NCBI RefSeq assembly: GCF_009911265.1
Contig: NZ_QXXA01000012.1
Coordinates: forward strand, 1-64,000
Direction: 5' to 3'
Source: Senegalia massiliensis
GTDB taxonomy: Bacteria > Bacillota > Clostridia > Tissierellales > SIT17
DNA: 64,000 bases
Shown one piece after another: positions 39,138-48,464 of the stretch. The number at the start of each line of letters is the position of its first letter. The first letter of the stretch is position 1. The notes beneath the pieces were generated by a model. It saw only the letters and a list, made by a program, of their open reading frames with translations. It was not told the DNA's origin and did no database searches. Both the position numbers and the translations under genes were made by a program.

Positions 39138-40314
39138 TCACTTTCCCCTTGAAGGTTCTGGAAGTGGTGTATATACAAGAAATTTAGCAATAGAACTTAC
39201 TAAAAGAGGAAATGAAGTGAGGGTAATATTTCCTGAAAATGAAAAACCAAGAGAAGAAATATTTGAACAAAGACCAATATACTTTAAAGGTGTAAATAGT
39301 ACTGATTGGGATTTAGATTATGATTTTCCATGCTTTACATCTCACCCAAGAAGTATGAATACTTATTATGATTTAAATAATGAACAAATGAAAGATTATA
39401 TTGATGTATTTTTAAAAAGAGTAAAAGAGGAAGTAGATGACTTTAATCCTGATATAATTCATGCTCAACATTTATGGATTGCACCTTTTGCTGCTTCTAA
39501 AACAAAAGTACCTTATATTGTAACAGCACATGGGACAGATTTGAAAGGATTTAAAAAAGATAGTAGATATCATAAATATGCTTTAGAAGGGGCAAGAAAT
39601 GCATCTAAAATAATAACTATATCAAAACAAGTTGATAGTGAAGTTAAGTCTTTATATGGAGTAAATGATGAAGATACTGAAATAGTTATGAATGGATATG
39701 ATGAAGAATTATTTAAACCAATGGATTTAGATAAAAAGAAAATTTTAAAGAATTTTGGAGTAAATACAAGTCCTGATTATATAGTATCCTTTGCAGGCAA
39801 ACTTACACATTTTAAAGGAGTAGATGTTTTAGTAAAGGCTGCTAAAACTTATAATAATAGTATAGAGGGTAAAACTGTTGTTACATTAATTGCAGGAAAT
39901 GGAGAACTTTATTCAGAGCTAGTAGAATTAAAGGATAGGTTAAGCATTAATAATCTTTTCTTTCTAGGTCATGTAAGTCAAAAAAAATTAGTAGATTTAT
40001 ATAATATTGCAGATGTAAGTACAGTACCTTCTAGGGTAGAGCCTTTTGGACTTGTTGCAATAGAAGCACTTGGTTGTGGAACTCCTGTAGTAGTTACAAA
40101 CCAAGGAGGACTTGTAGATTTTATAAATGATGATGTAGGAACTCTTGTAGATGTAGATGATGATATGAAACTTGCATCTGCTATAAGAAATGAACTTACT
40201 AGAAATGATAAAGAAGAAAGAAGTAAAAGGTGCTATAAATATGCTAAGAAAAACTTCTCATGGAAAAACACTTTAGATAATTTAGAAAAAATTTATGGAG
40301 GGGTTAAGAAATGA
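39118..40314 (+). CDS. GT4-family glycosyltransferase (GT-B fold)
   Basis: A 398-residue retaining glycosyltransferase. GSGSGVYTRNLA near residues 14-25 is the N-terminal glycine-rich loop, AHGTDLKGF near 138 and SFAGKLTHFKGVD near 220 are typical, and SRVEPFGLVAIEALGCGTPVV near 302-322 carries the E-x7-E motif. The donor and acceptor are unknown. The ATG at 39118 is preferred, with AAAAGGAG ten bases before it; the ATG at 39109 abuts that site. It overlaps both neighbours, so all three are translated together. Confidence 0.88.
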   Translation: MKILLINHFPLEGSGSGVYTRNLAIELTKRGNEVRVIFPENEKPREEIFEQRPIYFKGVNSTDWDLDYDFPCFTSHPRSMNTYYDLNNEQMKDYIDVFLKRVKEEVDDFNPDIIHAQHLWIAPFAASKTKVPYIVTAHGTDLKGFKKDSRYHKYALEGARNASKIITISKQVDSEVKSLYGVNDEDTEIVMNGYDEELFKPMDLDKKKILKNFGVNTSPDYIVSFAGKLTHFKGVDVLVKAAKTYNNSIEGKTVVTLIAGNGELYSELVELKDRLSINNLFFLGHVSQKKLVDLYNIADVSTVPSRVEPFGLVAIEALGCGTPVVVTNQGGLVDFINDDVGTLVDVDDDMKLASAIRNELTRNDKEERSKRCYKYAKKNFSWKNTLDNLEKIYGGVKK

Positions 40315-42053
40315 GACAAACTGTAGTTATACCGACATATTGGTCCAGAAAATCAACTGAAGGGTGGAAAAAAGGAGATGCAATATATGATCATCCTACT
40401 CCTGTAGATAAGGAAGGGACATTAAAAAGGACACTTGAAAGTTTGAAAAATTTAAATGATAAAGACTTTAAATTAGTTATACTTTTATGCCCTACAACAA
40501 TAGATATAGAGAAAGAAGCTGAAGAAAAGGTTAAAAATATAATAAATAGCGTAGATATGGGGATTGAAACTTTTCTTTTTACTCCAAGAAGTTTAAGGAC
40601 TATAAAAAATATTTTTAAATCTTCTGATTTGAAAAGGGAAATAATAGATATGATGAGTTTGAAAGGATATTCTAATGTTCGAAATATGTGTCTTTTTTCA
40701 GCCCATATACTAGCTTCAGATGTAGTAATTTTAATAGATGATGATGAAATAATTGAAAATAAAAATTTCATATCCATGTCTAAGAAATATATAGGTAAAA
40801 GGATATATGGTGAAATTATATATGGAGTTGCTGGATACTATCTAAATAAGCATGATGAATATTATGATGATGTAGATATGGAGCCTTGGATGACATATTG
40901 GGATAGATTTGGTAGTAAAGCTAAAGCATTTGATAAAATTATAGGTTGTGAACCAAGATTAAAACAAACTCCTTTTGCTTTTGGTGGAGCAATGGTGATT
41001 CACAAGAATCTTTATCAGCTTATAGCTTTTGATCCTAATATTACGAGAGGAGAAGATATTGATTATTTAATTAATTCAAAGATGTTTGGATTTAATTTCT
41101 TTTTAGATAATAAACTTTCTGTGAAACATCTTCCACCTAAAAAAAATCATCCAGTATGGCAAAGATTTAGAGAAGATATTTATAGATTTATGTATGAAAG
41201 AGCAAAGCTATCTTCACAATATGCTGTAAATAATATGACCATAGTAAAACCAGAGGATTTTGATCCTTATCCTGGTGAATTTTTAAAGGATGATTTAGAA
41301 GATAAAATATATAAGACCAATGTATTATTATCCTTAGAATATTTAGCAGAAGGTGATACGGAAGCTTCAAAAGAGACTATGAAAAATATTTATATAAGTA
41401 AATATGAAGCAGTAAAAGAAAAAGATCCTTTTACTCAATATAGATATATACAAAGAAATTGGCAAAAAATAGTTGATTTTACTATACAAAATAGATATCA
41501 AATTAGAAAAATAATGGAAAGTAATAATTTATCTAAACAAAATGTAGATGCTAAAGAAAAACAAAAAAATATCAGTTTAGAAGATAAGATAAATAAAATA
41601 AAGAGTATAAAAGAATTTGGAATTTTTACAGAAGAAGAAATAAAAGAAATTGCACAAATTACAAATATTAAGTTCTTTAATGATAATGAAATGGTATTTA
41701 AAGAAGGAGAACAGGATTCAAAATTTTATATAATAGTAGATGGATGTATAAATATATTTAAGCGTAATGAAAAAAATGAAGAAATTTCTTTAGCAACACT
41801 TTGTACAGGAAATTTCATAGGAGAAACTGCAATAGCTACAGAAAAATACTATGTAAATGGTAAAGCAACTGAATTTTTAACTGTTTTATCTTTAGAGCAA
41901 TCACAAATTGAAGAGATAGTTAGGTCAAAACCAAAGATGGGAATGAAATTTCTTCAAATATTTGTAGACAAACTTTCTTATAAATTAGGAAAAACAAACA
42001 AACTTTATGCAGATTATTTACTTCAAACTTCTCATTTAGAAGATATGAGTTAA
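40311..42053 (+). CDS. Glycosyltransferase fused to a CRP-like cyclic-nucleotide-binding domain
   Basis: A 580-residue protein without membrane segments. Residues about 1-330 look like a GT-A transferase: TVVIPTYW at the start, VVILIDDDEII near 136 (DDD), FAFGGAMVIHK near 223 and RGEDIDYLINSKMFG near 245-259. About 330-430 is helical. About 445-565 has a complete cNMP-binding-fold layout: FNDNEMVFKEGEQDSKFYIIVDGCINIFKRN, then TLCTGNFIGETAIATEKY. There is no C-terminal HTH, so it is not a CRP regulator. The expected R-x-A of the phosphate cassette reads GKAT, so cAMP binding is not assured. Overlaps the GT4 gene by four bases. Confidence 0.8.
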   Translation: MRQTVVIPTYWSRKSTEGWKKGDAIYDHPTPVDKEGTLKRTLESLKNLNDKDFKLVILLCPTTIDIEKEAEEKVKNIINSVDMGIETFLFTPRSLRTIKNIFKSSDLKREIIDMMSLKGYSNVRNMCLFSAHILASDVVILIDDDEIIENKNFISMSKKYIGKRIYGEIIYGVAGYYLNKHDEYYDDVDMEPWMTYWDRFGSKAKAFDKIIGCEPRLKQTPFAFGGAMVIHKNLYQLIAFDPNITRGEDIDYLINSKMFGFNFFLDNKLSVKHLPPKKNHPVWQRFREDIYRFMYERAKLSSQYAVNNMTIVKPEDFDPYPGEFLKDDLEDKIYKTNVLLSLEYLAEGDTEASKETMKNIYISKYEAVKEKDPFTQYRYIQRNWQKIVDFTIQNRYQIRKIMESNNLSKQNVDAKEKQKNISLEDKINKIKSIKEFGIFTEEEIKEIAQITNIKFFNDNEMVFKEGEQDSKFYIIVDGCINIFKRNEKNEEISLATLCTGNFIGETAIATEKYYVNGKATEFLTVLSLEQSQIEEIVRSKPKMGMKFLQIFVDKLSYKLGKTNKLYADYLLQTSHLEDMS

Positions 42054-42056
42054 TAT

Positions 42057-42090
42057 AAAAAGAATTGGTTTAAACCAATTCTTTTTTATT
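42057..42090. terminator. Perfect palindromic terminator between the glycosyltransferase cluster and lpd
   Basis: AAAAAGAATTGGTTT / AAACCAATTCTTTTT (30 bp, exact), T-run on the plus side. Confidence 0.9.
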
Positions 42091-43795
42091 AATTATGAAT
42101 AGCACCAGTTTCAGTACTTGCTAATATAGACTCATATATAGATTCTGCTGTTGTAGGATGAGCATGTATAGTATTCATTAAATCTATGTCTTTTAACTTG
42201 TTTTTTATAGCTAAAGCTATTTCATGAATTAAATCTGTAGCATGAGGACCTATTATAGAACCACCTAATATAACTCCTGTTTCTTTGTCCTTAATTATTT
42301 TAACAAATCCTTTAGATTCTCCTAATGTTAATGCTTTTCCATTTGAGGAAAAAGGAAATTGACCAATGGAAATTTCTAACCCTTTTTCTTTAGCTTCTTT
42401 TTCATTTAATCCAACTATTGCTATTTCTGGATCTGTAAATATGGCAGAAGGTATAACATCATATTCCATATCTACATCTTTATCTAAAATATTTTCTACA
42501 GCTACTATAGCTTGGTGAGACGCTACATGAGCTAGTTGAATTTTATCTGTAACATCACCTATAGCATATATATTAGAAATATTAGTTTGCATTTTAGTAT
42601 TTACTTTTATTCCTCTTTTATTTTCATTTCTTTCAATACCTAACTTTTCTAAATCTATTTCACCTAAATTTGGTTCTCTTCCTACAGATAATAACACTTT
42701 ATCACTAGTAATATAATGTAATTTATTATTTTTGCTGAAGGATACAATACTTTCTTTATCTTCAGAATCAATTATTTCTTCAGCTTTTGATGAAGTATAT
42801 ATTTTTATTCCTTTTTCTTTTGCTATGGAAGTAATTTCTGAAACTATATTATTATCGATATTAGAGAGTATATCATTCATATATTCAATAACAGTTACAT
42901 CTACTCCAAAGTTATTGAAAAGAAAAGCAAACTCCATACCTATTACTCCTCCTCCTATGATTGTGAGTTTTTTAGGTAGTTTATTTATATCCAGTATTTG
43001 TTTGCTAGTTAGAACATTTTTAGAATCAATACCTTTAATAGGAATCATAGATACTTTAGAACCTGTAGCTAAAATTATATTTTTAGTATTTATAGTTGTT
43101 TCTGTATTATTAGATTTTACAAATACAGTGTTTTTATCTAAAACTTTAGCATTTCCTTTATATAAAGTAACATTATTATTATTAAATAAATATTCTATAC
43201 CGTTAGTTAACTCTTTGACTATATTATTTTTTCTAGAAACTACTTTTTTTATATCAGCTGATATATTTTCAGCACATAATCCAAATTCATTTATATTCTT
43301 TAAATTGTCATACATTTTAGCTGAAGTTACAAATGCTTTTGTAGGTATACAACCCCAGTTTAAACAAGTTCCACCTACTTTTTCTTTTTCGATTATAGCA
43401 ACTTTAGCTCCCATTTTTGCAGCATAAATAGCAGCTACATATCCACCTGGACCTGCACCAATAACAGTTATATCCATATCTATTTCTTCTTTTTTAGGCT
43501 TCATTAATCCACCCATATAGTTGAATGTACTTTTTTTCTTAGAAGAAGTATTTTTTAATTCACCATCAACTGTTATAAGTATGTCATCTTTTTTGACCGT
43601 ATCACCAGTTTGAACCTTAACTGATTTAACAACTCCAGAAGCAGTAGAGGTTATTGTTTTATTACCTTTATTAGATTCTATATCTAATATTTCATCTCCT
43701 GATTTTATATTATCATTAACTTTTACATATACTTTTCCTATCTTTCCATTATTAGAATGTCCAGATAATTTTTCAAGCTTAATATCAATCAACAT
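42089..43795 (-). CDS. lpdA: Dihydrolipoamide dehydrogenase with N-terminal lipoyl domain
   Basis: A 568-residue flavoprotein disulfide reductase. Residues about 1-75 are a lipoyl/biotinyl-like domain with ILDIESNKGNKTI, where the Lys is in the lipoylation position. After a linker comes FAD-binding ITVIGAGPGGYVAA (about 105), then the redox disulfide GGTCLNWGCIPTKA, the NAD-binding IGGGVIGMEF, and the C-terminal HAHPT dimer-interface motif with His/Glu. It catalyses NAD+-linked oxidation of dihydrolipoyl groups. No E1/E2 or glycine-cleavage gene is next to it. The ATG at 43795 has AAAGGA eight bases upstream; the ATG at 43804 abuts the site. Confidence 0.92.
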   Translation of the reverse strand: MLIDIKLEKLSGHSNNGKIGKVYVKVNDNIKSGDEILDIESNKGNKTITSTASGVVKSVKVQTGDTVKKDDILITVDGELKNTSSKKKSTFNYMGGLMKPKKEEIDMDITVIGAGPGGYVAAIYAAKMGAKVAIIEKEKVGGTCLNWGCIPTKAFVTSAKMYDNLKNINEFGLCAENISADIKKVVSRKNNIVKELTNGIEYLFNNNNVTLYKGNAKVLDKNTVFVKSNNTETTINTKNIILATGSKVSMIPIKGIDSKNVLTSKQILDINKLPKKLTIIGGGVIGMEFAFLFNNFGVDVTVIEYMNDILSNIDNNIVSEITSIAKEKGIKIYTSSKAEEIIDSEDKESIVSFSKNNKLHYITSDKVLLSVGREPNLGEIDLEKLGIERNENKRGIKVNTKMQTNISNIYAIGDVTDKIQLAHVASHQAIVAVENILDKDVDMEYDVIPSAIFTDPEIAIVGLNEKEAKEKGLEISIGQFPFSSNGKALTLGESKGFVKIIKDKETGVILGGSIIGPHATDLIHEIALAIKNKLKDIDLMNTIHAHPTTAESIYESILASTETGAIHN

Positions 43796-43810
43796 TTTTC
43801 TCATCCTTTT

Positions 43811-43864: not shown

Positions 43865-44215
43865 TTATTTAAAGTCTTTTTCAAATTCATTCAATGACTC
43901 TTTTAGTAATGTTACACTATATGCAATTGAAGGGCCGCCACCAAAAGCTACAGCTACCATTGCTGATTCAAGAATCTCTTCTCTTGTTGCTCCTGCTTCA
44001 AGTGCTTTATAAGTATGGAAGACAATACAATATTCACATCTATTATAGCAACCTATAGCTATACTCATTAATTCTTTAGTTTTTAAATCTAATGCTCCAG
44101 GTTCATAGGATGCTTCTAAAAGGCCCATAAAAGCACCTACATGCTTTTCGTTAGATTCTGCTAGTTCTTCTAATCCACCTGTGAAATCATTTAACATTTT
44201 TCTTACATCTGCCAT
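43865..44215 (-). CDS. Carboxymuconolactone decarboxylase / AhpD-like protein
   Basis: A 116-residue helical protein of the CMD family. CEYCIVFHTYKALEAGATREEILES near residues 61-85 holds the C-x2-C disulfide and downstream His of AhpD-type alkylhydroperoxidase proteins. In mycobacteria AhpD is reduced by a lipoyl protein and Lpd; the neighbouring lipoyl-Lpd gene makes the same link plausible here (inference). It could instead be a CMD of another function. ATG with GGAGGAG; it is the first gene of the pair. Confidence 0.85.
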   Translation of the reverse strand: MADVRKMLNDFTGGLEELAESNEKHVGAFMGLLEASYEPGALDLKTKELMSIAIGCYNRCEYCIVFHTYKALEAGATREEILESAMVAVAFGGGPSIAYSVTLLKESLNEFEKDFK

Positions 44216-44303
44216 TATTAACTCCTCCTAATTTAGATTTAACATTTTAATATACTTAGTATAGCAAGTAATTTGTTAATTGTCAATCAATATTAAATAA
44301 AAA

Positions 44304-44334
44304 AGTAAACATAATATTAGATATTATGTTTACT
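44304..44334 (-). terminator. Terminator of the MATE-MarR operon
   Basis: AGTAAACATAATAT / ATATTATGTTTACT stem with a 3-base loop, overlapping the marR stop and followed by six T on the minus strand. Confidence 0.85.
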
Positions 44335-44751
44335 TACATTTGAAACCATTTTATGAAGTACATTCATGAATATTTCCAATTCATCTTCTTTTATACCTGT
44401 TGATACTAATTCATTAAATTTTTCTCCCTCAGGTAAAAGTTCTATTCTTGTTTCTTTTCCTTTTTGAGTTAATATTATATTTATAACTCTTTTATCAGAT
44501 TGATTTTTTTTACGTATAACTAATTTTTCTCTTTCCATTCTATCTATTAATCTAGCTATAGTAGATTCTTTAATATTCATAAGTTTTGCTAAATCTCTTT
44601 GATTAACATTATTGTTTTTTCCTAAATAATATAGTGCAATCCATTGCACTCTAGTAACTCCTTTTTCATTAAGTATTTTATCAAATGTTTCAGTAATGAT
44701 TTTAGTCGAGTTATCTGTAATGTAAGATACTCAAGTATCCAAGTTGAACAA
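44317..44751 (-). CDS. MarR family regulator with an in-frame TGA at codon 7 (candidate selenoprotein, or nonsense mutant)
   Basis: The frame starts TTG at 44751 after GAGGTGATTATT, reads MFNLDT, meets TGA at 44733-44731, and continues VSYITDNSTKIITETFDKIL and then NEKGVTRVQWIALYYLG to a normal MarR domain and stop. With the TGA read through it is 144 residues, the usual MarR length, and the part before the conventional start at 44649 (GTG, 110 residues) is clearly MarR-like. The HTH is NQRDLAKLMNIKESTIARLIDRM, with the wing after it. I recall Cys at this place in clostridial relatives, so selenocysteine is possible; a nonsense mutation is the alternative. Last gene of the MATE operon. Confidence 0.65.
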
Positions 44752-44772
44752 AATAATCACCTCTTATTAAAT

Positions 44773-46134
44773 TTAACTAAATTCTTTTTTTATTATTTTA
44801 TTTTCCCATTTTCTAGATAAATAAAGAATAAATCCTATTAAACATACAGATGCATTACTTAATATCATTGCAAACCATACTGATTTTTCACCTAAATTGG
44901 TAAAGTTTTTAAATATGAGTATCAAAGGTATCCTAAATACCCATAGTCTGGAACCCATAATAAGCATTGCCATGATAGTATGTCCAGAGCCTTGAAAAGT
45001 ACCATTAAATATTTGAAATATTCCCATTAAAGGTAGAGAAGCAGATATAACTCTTAAATAAAATGTGGCTTGTGATATTACATCTTTACTATTTGTAAAT
45101 AAATTTATAATTTGTGGTGCTGTTATAAATACAATAGATCCACCTATAATTAAAAATATCGTAGCAAGTGCTGCACTAGTTTTTACAGCTTTTCTTGCCC
45201 TTAAAATATTATCCTTACCTAAATTTTGTCCTACTATTGTAGCAAGTGCACTACCTATCCCCATAGCAGGCATGAGAATAAGTGAATTTATTCTATTACC
45301 AATTATAAATGCTGTAAGTGTAGCACTTCCAAATGATTTTACAAATACATTTAATACAGCAAATCCAAGAGAAGCAGTAGATTGACCAATTGAAGAGGGA
45401 AGGCCTACTAAAATAATCTTTTTAAGCCAATATTTTTTAACTTTCAAATGACACTTATTTAATTTTATACCATCATCTTTTGTAAATAAAATATACATGG
45501 CATATAGTGCAAGTATTCCTCTTGCTAAAACTGTAGCAATTGCAGCACCGCTTACTCCTAAATTAAATACAAAAATAAAAATAGGATCTAAAATTATATT
45601 CAATGCTACCGAAAAAGCTACAAGAACCATAGGAGTATAAGTATCCCCTTGACCTTGCTTTATTGCTTTAAAAGCAAAAAATATAAACATAGTTGGAAGC
45701 CCTAAAAGTATTATTCTTAAAAAATCTACACTATAATTAAATAACTCTCCTTCTGCTCCCATTATTGAAACGATAAATGGGGTAGTAAAAAAACCTAATA
45801 TTCCTAAAACTGTAGAAGAAATAAAAGAAAATGAAATAATTTGTCCAGCAACAACTTTTGCTTGCTCATGATCATTAGCACCTGTATATTGAGAAATTAG
45901 AGCTGTTCCTGATATTGAAAGGCCTACTGCAATCGACATCATAAAAAAGATAATTGGCCATACAAAACCAACTGCATTTACTTCTATATCTCCAAGCCTA
46001 CTTACAAAAAAAGTATCTGTTAAGTTATAAATTGTCTGTATTAAATTATTTATCATAAGTGGAACAGATAAAGTTAATATGACTTTTGCCATATCTCCTT
46101 TTAATATTAGTTTACGTTTCTCGGCATAGTCCAT
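44773..46134 (-). CDS. MATE family efflux transporter
   Basis: A 453-residue twelve-helix transporter. LSVPLMINNLIQTIYNLTDTFFVSRLG (about residues 23-49) is the MatE start, and KQGQGDTYTPMVLVAFSVALN near 161 is another family motif. The drug or metabolite exported is unknown, with Na+ or H+ antiport by family knowledge. It precedes the marR gene by 21 bases on the same strand, the reverse of the marR-MATE order at 24.1-25.9 kb. ATG with GGGGG-type site. Confidence 0.9.
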   Translation of the reverse strand: MDYAEKRKLILKGDMAKVILTLSVPLMINNLIQTIYNLTDTFFVSRLGDIEVNAVGFVWPIIFFMMSIAVGLSISGTALISQYTGANDHEQAKVVAGQIISFSFISSTVLGILGFFTTPFIVSIMGAEGELFNYSVDFLRIILLGLPTMFIFFAFKAIKQGQGDTYTPMVLVAFSVALNIILDPIFIFVFNLGVSGAAIATVLARGILALYAMYILFTKDDGIKLNKCHLKVKKYWLKKIILVGLPSSIGQSTASLGFAVLNVFVKSFGSATLTAFIIGNRINSLILMPAMGIGSALATIVGQNLGKDNILRARKAVKTSAALATIFLIIGGSIVFITAPQIINLFTNSKDVISQATFYLRVISASLPLMGIFQIFNGTFQGSGHTIMAMLIMGSRLWVFRIPLILIFKNFTNLGEKSVWFAMILSNASVCLIGFILYLSRKWENKIIKKEFS

Positions 46135-46692: not shown

Positions 46693-47403
46693 ATGAGCAA
46701 TTGTAATGGAGTTTGTGATTTATGCCAAGGGAAATATTGTGCTAAAAAAGTATCTATATTTTCCATACTTCCAGAAGAGGAGCTTGCACAAATTACAAAT
46801 AAATTAGAAGTAAGAAAATACAAAAAAAATGATATGCTCTTTTTTGAAGGAGATATTTCAGATAAATTATTTTTAATAAATAAAGGTAAAATAAAAGCTT
46901 TTAAATATACACGAGATGGAAAAGAACAAATTATATATATATTAGCAGAAGGTGATTTTATAGGAGATATGAGTCTTATAAAACAAAGTGAATTTAAATT
47001 TAATGCTATAGCTATGGAAGATAGCACAATATCAATACTAACTAAAAAAGATTTTGACAAAATACTTTTAAATAACCCTACAATTGCATTAAAAATATTA
47101 GGTGTAATTCATGATAGAGTAGTAAATTTAGAAAATCAAATACAAAGGCTAGGAACAAAAGATATTGAATCTAGACTTGCAGGACTACTTTTAAGTTTAA
47201 TTAAAGATTTTGGTACACCCAAAGAAAGTATAGTAGAACTTGAGATACCACTTAGTAGAGAAGATATGGCAAATTATATAGGATCAACCAGAGAAACAGT
47301 TAGTAGAAAGTTAAGTTCACTTCAAGATGATAATATAATAGAATTAATAGGGAATAAGAAAATAATTATAAAAGATTTAAATTTACTTGAAAACTTAGCT
47401 TAG
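46693..47403 (+). CDS. CRP/FNR family regulator with N-terminal Cys cluster
   Basis: A 236-residue regulator. Four Cys in the first 16 residues (C4, C8, C11, C16; CNGVCDLCQGKYC) precede a cNMP-binding-like beta-roll (about 20-130) and an HTH with LSREDMANYIGSTRETVSRKLSSL (about 190-213), ending with the recognition E-T-V-S-R. FNR proteins hold an oxygen-sensitive Fe-S cluster on Cys, so a redox role is likely (inference). It precedes a dehalogenase-like gene by 14 bases, recalling CprK and reductive dehalogenases. GTGAAACT ribosome site is weak; ATG at 46693. Confidence 0.88.
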   Translation: MSNCNGVCDLCQGKYCAKKVSIFSILPEEELAQITNKLEVRKYKKNDMLFFEGDISDKLFLINKGKIKAFKYTRDGKEQIIYILAEGDFIGDMSLIKQSEFKFNAIAMEDSTISILTKKDFDKILLNNPTIALKILGVIHDRVVNLENQIQRLGTKDIESRLAGLLLSLIKDFGTPKESIVELEIPLSREDMANYIGSTRETVSRKLSSLQDDNIIELIGNKKIIIKDLNLLENLA

Positions 47404-47417
47404 AGAGGAAATAAATT

Positions 47418-48464
47418 ATGAAAAAAATAGATGAAAGAGATACTATGTTTTCACGTATGAATTTAGAAGAAGGTTCTAAGGACTATAATAATTATTATAA
47501 TAATCATCCTGAGAAAAAAGAAAAAGATGATGAAATTAGAAATAAACCTGAAATTTGTGGAGAAGGAACTGCCACATATGATCCAATAAATTCTAAAATA
47601 GCTGAAGCAAACTTTAAATTTTTAAATGATATAAAAAAAATATCAGAAGGAATTCCTGCACTTGAAAAGGTGGATGTGAATAGTGAAACTATCACTAGAA
47701 GAATAAAAGGTCTTTCAAAACACTTTGGTGCTGTCAAGGTAGGTATTACGAGAATGCGAAATTATCATTGGTATTCTAATAGAGGTAGGGATAATGAAAC
47801 TTATGGTGATAAAGTAAATTCAAACCATAAATATGGTATAGTTTTTGCTGTTAAAATGGATAAGGAAATGTTAAATAGATCCCCACAAGTCTCAGAAATC
47901 ATAGATACTTCAAATGCCTATGTAAAAGCAAGTATTATTGGAATGCAGATATCATATTTTTTAAGAGAACTTGGGTATGAAGCTAGAAATCATATGGATG
48001 CAAATTATTTAGCTGTATTACCGCTTGTAGCAAGAGATGCAGGTATTGGAGATATAGGAAGAAATGGAATAATCATCACAAAAGAATATGGTCAAATGAT
48101 AAGACTTGGACTAATTACTACAAATATACCTTTAATAGAAGATGAATATAAAGACTTTGGTTTAAATAATTTTTGTGAGAGATGTAATAGATGCTTGAGA
48201 ACTTGTCCAGGCAAGGCTATACCAAAAGATAAAAAAGATATAAATGGTATAAATAGGTGGCAAATAAATCAGGAAGATTGCTATAATATGTGGAGAATAT
48301 TAGGAACAGATTGTGGAATTTGTATATCTAGTTGTCCTTTTAGCCAAGGTGTTGATATTGAAAATATAAAGAGTAATAAAGACATAGATGAAGCATTGAA
48401 AGAGCATGATGAAAAATATGGCATAAGACCATATATAAGAACACAACCTGAATGGTTGAAATAA
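47418..48464 (+). CDS. Soluble reductive-dehalogenase-like / double 4Fe-4S protein
   Basis: A 348-residue cytosolic protein without Tat signal. The middle (LGYEARNHMDANYLAVLPLVARDAGIGDIGRNG split over about 190-222) resembles the RdhA/QueG corrinoid domain. Then FCERCNRCLRTCPGKAI (C-x2-C-x2-C-x3-C) and CYNMWRILGTDCGICISSCPF (C-x11-C-x2-C-x3-C) give two 4Fe-4S sites in the RdhA pattern. It may be a corrinoid-dependent reductase; no rdhB-type anchor gene is present, and QueG (about 380 residues) is the other possibility. GAGGAAAT upstream of ATG. The CRP/FNR gene lies just before it. Confidence 0.78.
   Translation: MKKIDERDTMFSRMNLEEGSKDYNNYYNNHPEKKEKDDEIRNKPEICGEGTATYDPINSKIAEANFKFLNDIKKISEGIPALEKVDVNSETITRRIKGLSKHFGAVKVGITRMRNYHWYSNRGRDNETYGDKVNSNHKYGIVFAVKMDKEMLNRSPQVSEIIDTSNAYVKASIIGMQISYFLRELGYEARNHMDANYLAVLPLVARDAGIGDIGRNGIIITKEYGQMIRLGLITTNIPLIEDEYKDFGLNNFCERCNRCLRTCPGKAIPKDKKDINGINRWQINQEDCYNMWRILGTDCGICISSCPFSQGVDIENIKSNKDIDEALKEHDEKYGIRPYIRTQPEWLK

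Follow-up and report, generated by a model that had tools for sequence, protein, structure and literature searches.

A predicted selenocysteine at residue 7 of a MarR-family regulator adjoining a putative lipoyl-dependent peroxidase operon in Senegalia massiliensis

Related regulators, selenoproteins and peroxidase systems

OhrR, SarZ and MgrA are single-thiol sensors of the MarR family which release DNA on oxidation. The regulator described here, encoded in a stretch of 64,000 nucleotides from Senegalia massiliensis (positions 1 to 64,000 of contig NZ_QXXA01000012.1, assembly GCF_009911265.1, hereafter called the window), resembles OhrR, SarZ, MgrA and AbfR (structures 1z91, 3hrm, 2bv6 and 5hlg) in its MarR fold, in having, close to where helix 1 begins, a single and presumably reactive chalcogen, and in its linkage to a peroxide-detoxifying gene, which is OsmC in some relatives. 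It differs from them in that selenocysteine (Sec) is predicted to replace Cys in one clade, and in that its main partner is an AhpD-like protein with a lipoyl-domain dihydrolipoyl dehydrogenase (Lpd). Identification of the protein as OhrR itself failed on both the position of the sensor Cys and the model score. In a profile alignment, ungapped over this stretch, Cys15 of OhrR pairs with Ser9, two residues from Sec7, and Gln13 with Sec7 itself, and the chemistry may thus differ from that of OhrR; the score with the curated model NF052638 was 42.8 bits (cut-off 200), and the OhrR-type NCBIfam models were far below cut-off. OhrR was absent from the 50 structure-comparison matches listed, and may stand further down. 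The model of the bilirubin utilisation regulator BilQ (NF045593) was among the top-scoring NCBIfam MarR models, but its 55 bits fell well short of the cut-off (125), and no shared neighbours were seen.

Nearly all of the prokaryotic selenoproteins listed so far are enzymes, transporters or redox proteins. A 2026 review lists 119 families, among them no MarR protein, the sole 'regulatory' entry being the FmdB family (PMC13188914), and a MarR selenoprotein is not mentioned with deep-Sep (PMC12013277) or by Peng 2016 (PMC5029168). The literature searched contained no paper that connects a selenoprotein to regulators of the MarR or OhrR type, and prior mention elsewhere is possible. The marR gene of the window shares with the SelB-decoded selenoproteins SelD, GrdA and GrdB an in-frame UGA at a Cys position, a complete decoding machinery in the genome and RNA structure downstream of the UGA, which in the host selD also includes two tandem hairpins; its product, unlike theirs, acts as a regulator that binds DNA and is neither an enzyme nor a transporter.

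Systems of a lipoyl protein and Lpd are known reductants of AhpD and of OsmC/Ohr proteins (PMC8945050). The genes next to marR resemble these thiol peroxidase systems in that a lipoyl protein and Lpd are present as reductant for an AhpD-like or OsmC protein; they differ in the fusion of the lipoyl domain to Lpd, in the frequent presence of LplA in the operon and in having a Sec or Cys MarR protein as regulator. The features of the window are given in Table 1.

Table 1 Features of the marR locus in the window
Feature	Position	Strand	Evidence
Dihydrolipoyl dehydrogenase with N-terminal lipoyl domain	42089..43804	minus	TIGR01350 556 bits, over cut-off; Biotin_lipoyl; conserved in operon
CMD/AhpD-like protein, first gene of predicted target operon	43865..44215	minus	Pfam CMD E 1.6e-22; conserved marR neighbour
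Promoter TTGACA-N17-TATACT (44286-44258) and operator half-site TTGCTATACTAA (44267-44256), 5' of ahpD-like gene	44251..44286	minus	
MarR-family regulator gene, Sec at residue 7 predicted	44317..44751	minus	TTG start, 144 aa with UGA read through; Pfam MarR
Hairpin AGUGCAA(UGGA)UUGCACU, candidate SelB-binding, loop 87 nt after UGA	44633..44650	minus	
Long-range helix, 3' strand GGAGUUA, nt 69-75 after UGA	44655..44661	minus	
Long-range helix, 5' strand UAACUCG, nt 17-23 after UGA, candidate SECIS part	44707..44713	minus	
In-frame UGA, marR codon 7, predicted selenocysteine	44731..44733	minus	TGA 24 / Cys 60 in 84 core homologues
Shine-Dalgarno AAGAGGTG 5' of marR TTG start	44758..44765	minus	Sequence
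MATE efflux protein gene, adjacent upstream of marR, non-conserved neighbour	44773..46134	minus	

The in-frame UGA and its exchange with cysteine codons

The Shine-Dalgarno sequence, TTG start, TGA at codon 7 and open frame beyond it that the initial annotation described are all present in the sequence. The marR frame runs from TTG at 44751-44749 to TAA at 44319-44317 and reads M-FNLDT-U-VSYITDNSTKIITETFDKILNEKGVTRVQW at its start, with 137 codons between the TGA and the TAA. Residue 7 is the sole Sec/Cys position in the whole protein, which matches Pfam MarR (PF01047, E 5.8e-14, above cut-off). Its AlphaFold model is confident (pLDDT 92.3) and in structure comparison shows a SlyA-type winged-helix MarR fold (Z 17.4). 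A general use of TGA as a sense codon was rejected: seven of the 46 window frames of at least 200 codons end in TGA, which thus serves as a stop here. A second MarR match with a TGA in the same genome (L005) was likewise discarded, the TGA there being an ordinary stop.

Homologues were gathered without reference to codon 7, and the peptide patterns with which species-representative genomes were scanned left out residue 7. The first 83 distinct core members had TGA (23), TGT (50) or TGC (10) at this codon and no other codon; a 24th TGA member (L170), whose hairpin position and operator match those of the others, came from a later phylum-wide search. The resulting 84 core homologues thus comprise 24 with TGA, 60 with Cys and none with a third residue, which bears out the earlier suggestion that the TGA falls at a Cys position. 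Among the 199 related genomes searched, homologues with TGA at the same position occur in other genera and families, and reading these homologues gave TGA or TGT as the codon and no other. Tyr, His, Asp or Ser was found there in six distant homologues only, and in the four of these non-Cys homologues that were tested (G153, G162, G173 and G178) neither a SelB above cut-off nor a tRNA-Sec was found.

The host genome carries a tRNA-Sec gene (C4:42280-42372, 69.9 bits) and selB (C4:45531-47417, above cut-off), adjoined on the same contig by a selA-like ORF and a Sec-type SelD gene, so that a search for selABCD, proposed as a check on the selenocysteine reading, found the whole set. The host SelD (ASGUAAK), GrdA (CFVU) and GrdB genes also contain an in-frame TGA; SelA, SelD and GrdB were identified by reading the sequence, with no model used.

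A selenoprotein and a nonsense mutation had both been considered for this gene, and the presence of the machinery, the recurrence of the TGA and the Cys in all remaining core members favour the former. Strict table-11 translation of marR ends after six residues, as would be expected if the TGA were a real stop, arising from a nonsense mutation or sequencing error, and marR a pseudogene. This reading has hardly any probability left, with TGA in the same column of 24 distinct homologues from many genera, only Cys in the other core members, a frame retained at 94 % identity in the close relative L016, and codons 3' of the TGA under both protein and synonymous constraint. The codon is conserved among homologues, and the TGA in the window is therefore not a fresh mutation. 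It is also very unlikely, if slightly less so, that the UGA terminates translation and that a shorter regulator starts at an internal GTG (44649), the 5' part serving as a leader. This GTG has a plausible Shine-Dalgarno sequence (AAGGAG, 8 nt upstream), and the 110-aa ORF is what a standard gene caller gives. The shorter product, however, would lack the opening helices of the MarR dimer domain, a start codon is missing from the matching position in most other Sec members, and the strict exchange between UGA and Cys codons would be left unexplained. Residues 2-34, moreover, are among the most conserved in members of the family, including F2, C/U7, K17, F23, T33 and R34. We strongly infer, from these comparisons of sequence, that Sec is inserted at codon 7.

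In a maximum-likelihood tree from which codon 7 had been left out, the 23 Sec members placed all fell into one clade (support 100/98) together with 11 Cys members, and at least seven Sec/Cys changes were needed. The simplest story would be a single change from Cys to Sec, followed by several returns to Cys. A tRNA-Sec was found in 17 of the 19 Sec genomes tested; in the same-order set it was found in 12 of 14, the two misses being metagenome-assembled genomes, 68 % and 85 % complete, both with selB. No tRNA-Sec was found in the four tested Cys revertant genomes inside the Sec clade (L046, L088, L090 and L091); the named Cys genomes tested there were those of Paenibacillus anaericanus, Anaerovorax odorimutans, Anaerovorax IOR16 and Anaerotignum MB30-C6, while all five Sec members tested beside them had a tRNA-Sec. 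The return to Cys does not always go by way of tRNA-Sec loss, since Cys members of Sedimentibacter and of the Lutispora type retain the Sec machinery.

RNA structure downstream of the UGA

The published bSECIS model of Zhang and Gladyshev places the apical loop 16-37 nt from the UGA and describes a loop of 3-9 nt with G in one of its first two positions; not every selenoprotein gene follows it, as its authors note (PMC13188914). The loops found here agree with the model in sequence (UGGA on 7 bp in the window; GGUC, AGUN, GGAG or GGGC in other Sec members) but not in spacing, the distance being 87 nt in the window and 48 nt in the others, in keeping with the initial annotation, which had found no hairpin at the usual distance.

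Nineteen Sec members, compared in an ungapped alignment, share a 6 bp hairpin (H1) at about nt 13-39 after the UGA and, directly 3' of it, a second hairpin of 7 bp (H2), the apical loop of which begins 48 nt after the UGA and reads GGUC, AGUC, AGUA, AGUG, GGAG or GGGC. The H2 cells are paired in 94 % of cases, with 19 cells changed on both sides compared with 7.0 in shuffles, and columns 18/42, where each base is the third of its codon, show all four Watson-Crick pairs (UA, AU, GC and CG). With shuffles that preserve the protein and codon use, nt 10-62 were more stable than synonymous shuffles in 17 of the 19 members (p ≤ 0.015, these and the other RNA p-values being single values among several windows and tests tried). 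Among ten nested Cys members the H2 stem was kept only in L081, with GGCC as its loop. Synonymous conservation in the other Sec groups was uneven, being significant in two of five. The two-hairpin RNA looks like a SECIS element, in which H1 would shorten the path to H2.

H2 at 48 nt is absent from the clade of the window, which has four Sec members (the window, L016, L017 and L047). Here a long-range helix is followed by the UGGA hairpin, with a stem of 7-9 bp in all four and of 1 bp in L046, the Cys relative nested in the clade. The region of nt 10-102 was more stable than synonymous shuffles in the four Sec members (p 0.010, 0.000, 0.003 and 0.003) and not in L046 (p 0.25). Codons 8-43 showed excess synonymous conservation in the clade (p 0.0008), a level of 0.05 being reached in none of seven control triples of Cys members; the codons of the UGGA hairpin alone were not significant (p 0.05-0.11). 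The helix and the UGGA hairpin show almost no covariation among these four related sequences, and for this reason they are proposed only as a candidate SECIS. Support for this structure is weaker than for the two-hairpin RNA of the 19 Sec relatives.

The initial annotation had also drawn a hairpin with the TGA at its base, around TACATTAC. It is real in L015 and L016, but shares its AUAACUC bases with the better-supported longer-range helix; as a SECIS it was rejected, as its loop lacks an initial G and it lies too near the UGA, besides competing with the long helix.

The UGGA hairpin (44650-44633) fits a simple terminator pattern and lies outside the 16-37 nt of the model, and could instead be a transcription attenuator or an mRNA stability element, Sec insertion then using another or unrecognised signal. 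The hairpin nevertheless occurs in every one of the clade's four Sec members, has been lost in the nested Cys member L046, and follows the helix much as H2 follows H1 in the other Sec members, and on this evidence an attenuator or stability element is a real but minority possibility beside a role in Sec insertion.

The downstream operon and a predicted redox switch

At most of the 83 loci, marR is followed by a CMD/AhpD-like gene, a gene for a lipoyl-domain Lpd of 570 residues and often LplA. The gap between the marR stop and ahpD is about 75-170 nt in most loci and about 220-360 nt in L021, L022, L032, L050, L078, L082 and L110. The sequence TTGCTATACTAAT lies between marR and ahpD, in many loci together with its mirror half; the operator 13-mer, with at most two mismatches, occurred downstream of marR in 57 of 83 loci, upstream in two and in shuffled sequence in one of 83. 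In the window the ahpD promoter matches 11 of 12 consensus positions, and the putative operator, with one good half-site and a degenerate second half, overlaps the -10 box. A second exact operator-like match in the host genome was set aside as an apparent chance occurrence within a transporter gene. Several Clostridium loci (L060, L061, L075, L087 and similar ones) have, upstream of the operator, a short inverted repeat of the type ATACCACC...GGTGGTAT.

The likely target of the regulator is the operon downstream of marR (AhpD / lipoyl-Lpd, with or without LplA). The MATE pump, put forward earlier as its target, is probably not, because it adjoins marR in the window and L016 only. In L059, L072 and L086 one or more genes of the OsmC family stand beside a Cys-type marR, in the usual place of AhpD, which suggests that the two peroxidase types are interchangeable in marR operons.

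Elsewhere in the window, a 580-residue protein (40311-42053, plus strand) combines an N-terminal part that by eye is glycosyltransferase-like, with no Pfam match there, and a C-terminal cyclic-nucleotide-binding domain, an unusual combination. A CRP/FNR-type protein with a Cys-rich N-terminus (CNGVCDLCQGKYC) is encoded at 46693-47403 (plus strand), beside a 4Fe-4S protein (47418-48464), and may be another redox regulator.

Taken jointly, it is probable that the marR product is a selenoprotein with Sec7 and a redox repressor of a lipoyl-dependent peroxidase operon, released from DNA by oxidation. UGA codon 7 would be decoded by the cell's own SelA, SelB, SelD and tRNA-Sec, assisted by RNA structure in the downstream coding region. 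By binding the palindrome TTGCTATACTAAT-ATTAGTATAGCAA at the -10 box of the following gene, the protein would repress the operon encoding the AhpD-like peroxidase/reductase, the lipoyl-domain Lpd and, in many relatives, LplA; repression at this putative operator is predicted from its position and conservation. The lipoyl-domain Lpd would pass electrons from NADH to the AhpD-like protein, LplA attaching the lipoyl group. Oxidation of Sec7, or of Cys7 in other lineages, would free the repressor from the DNA and thereby induce the operon, a peroxide signal and a role of residue 7 as the switch being suggested by the sole, invariant Cys/Sec and the function of the operon.

Alternatively, Sec7 might sense neither peroxide nor redox state, and might bind a metal or organometal (e.g. 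mercury or arsenic) or react with an electrophile. Several clostridial selenoproteins have been proposed to handle metals (PMC13188914), and the C. difficile MarR structure 8xt8 has Hg bound; the conserved partners AhpD/OsmC, lipoyl-Lpd and LplA, however, form a thiol-peroxidase electron chain and are not metal transporters, which makes such a role improbable.

As an extension of the redox repressor, we tentatively suggest, as a possibility that we would not rate as probable, a selenium-gated repressor in which one residue senses both selenium supply and redox state by way of a SECIS of an unmodelled spacing class. With UGA at codon 7, selenium shortage would leave hardly any repressor and the lipoyl-peroxidase operon would be derepressed; with plentiful selenium, the Sec repressor would respond to oxidants faster than its Cys relatives.

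If the selenoprotein reading is true, Sec in a DNA-binding repressor puts selenium chemistry directly into gene control. The RNA elements of the Sec marR genes would widen the bacterial SECIS rules in gene finders, which overlook such genes or cut them short. With natural Sec/Cys pairs of one sensor, and with a predicted operon and operator, why Sec is used over Cys would become directly testable.
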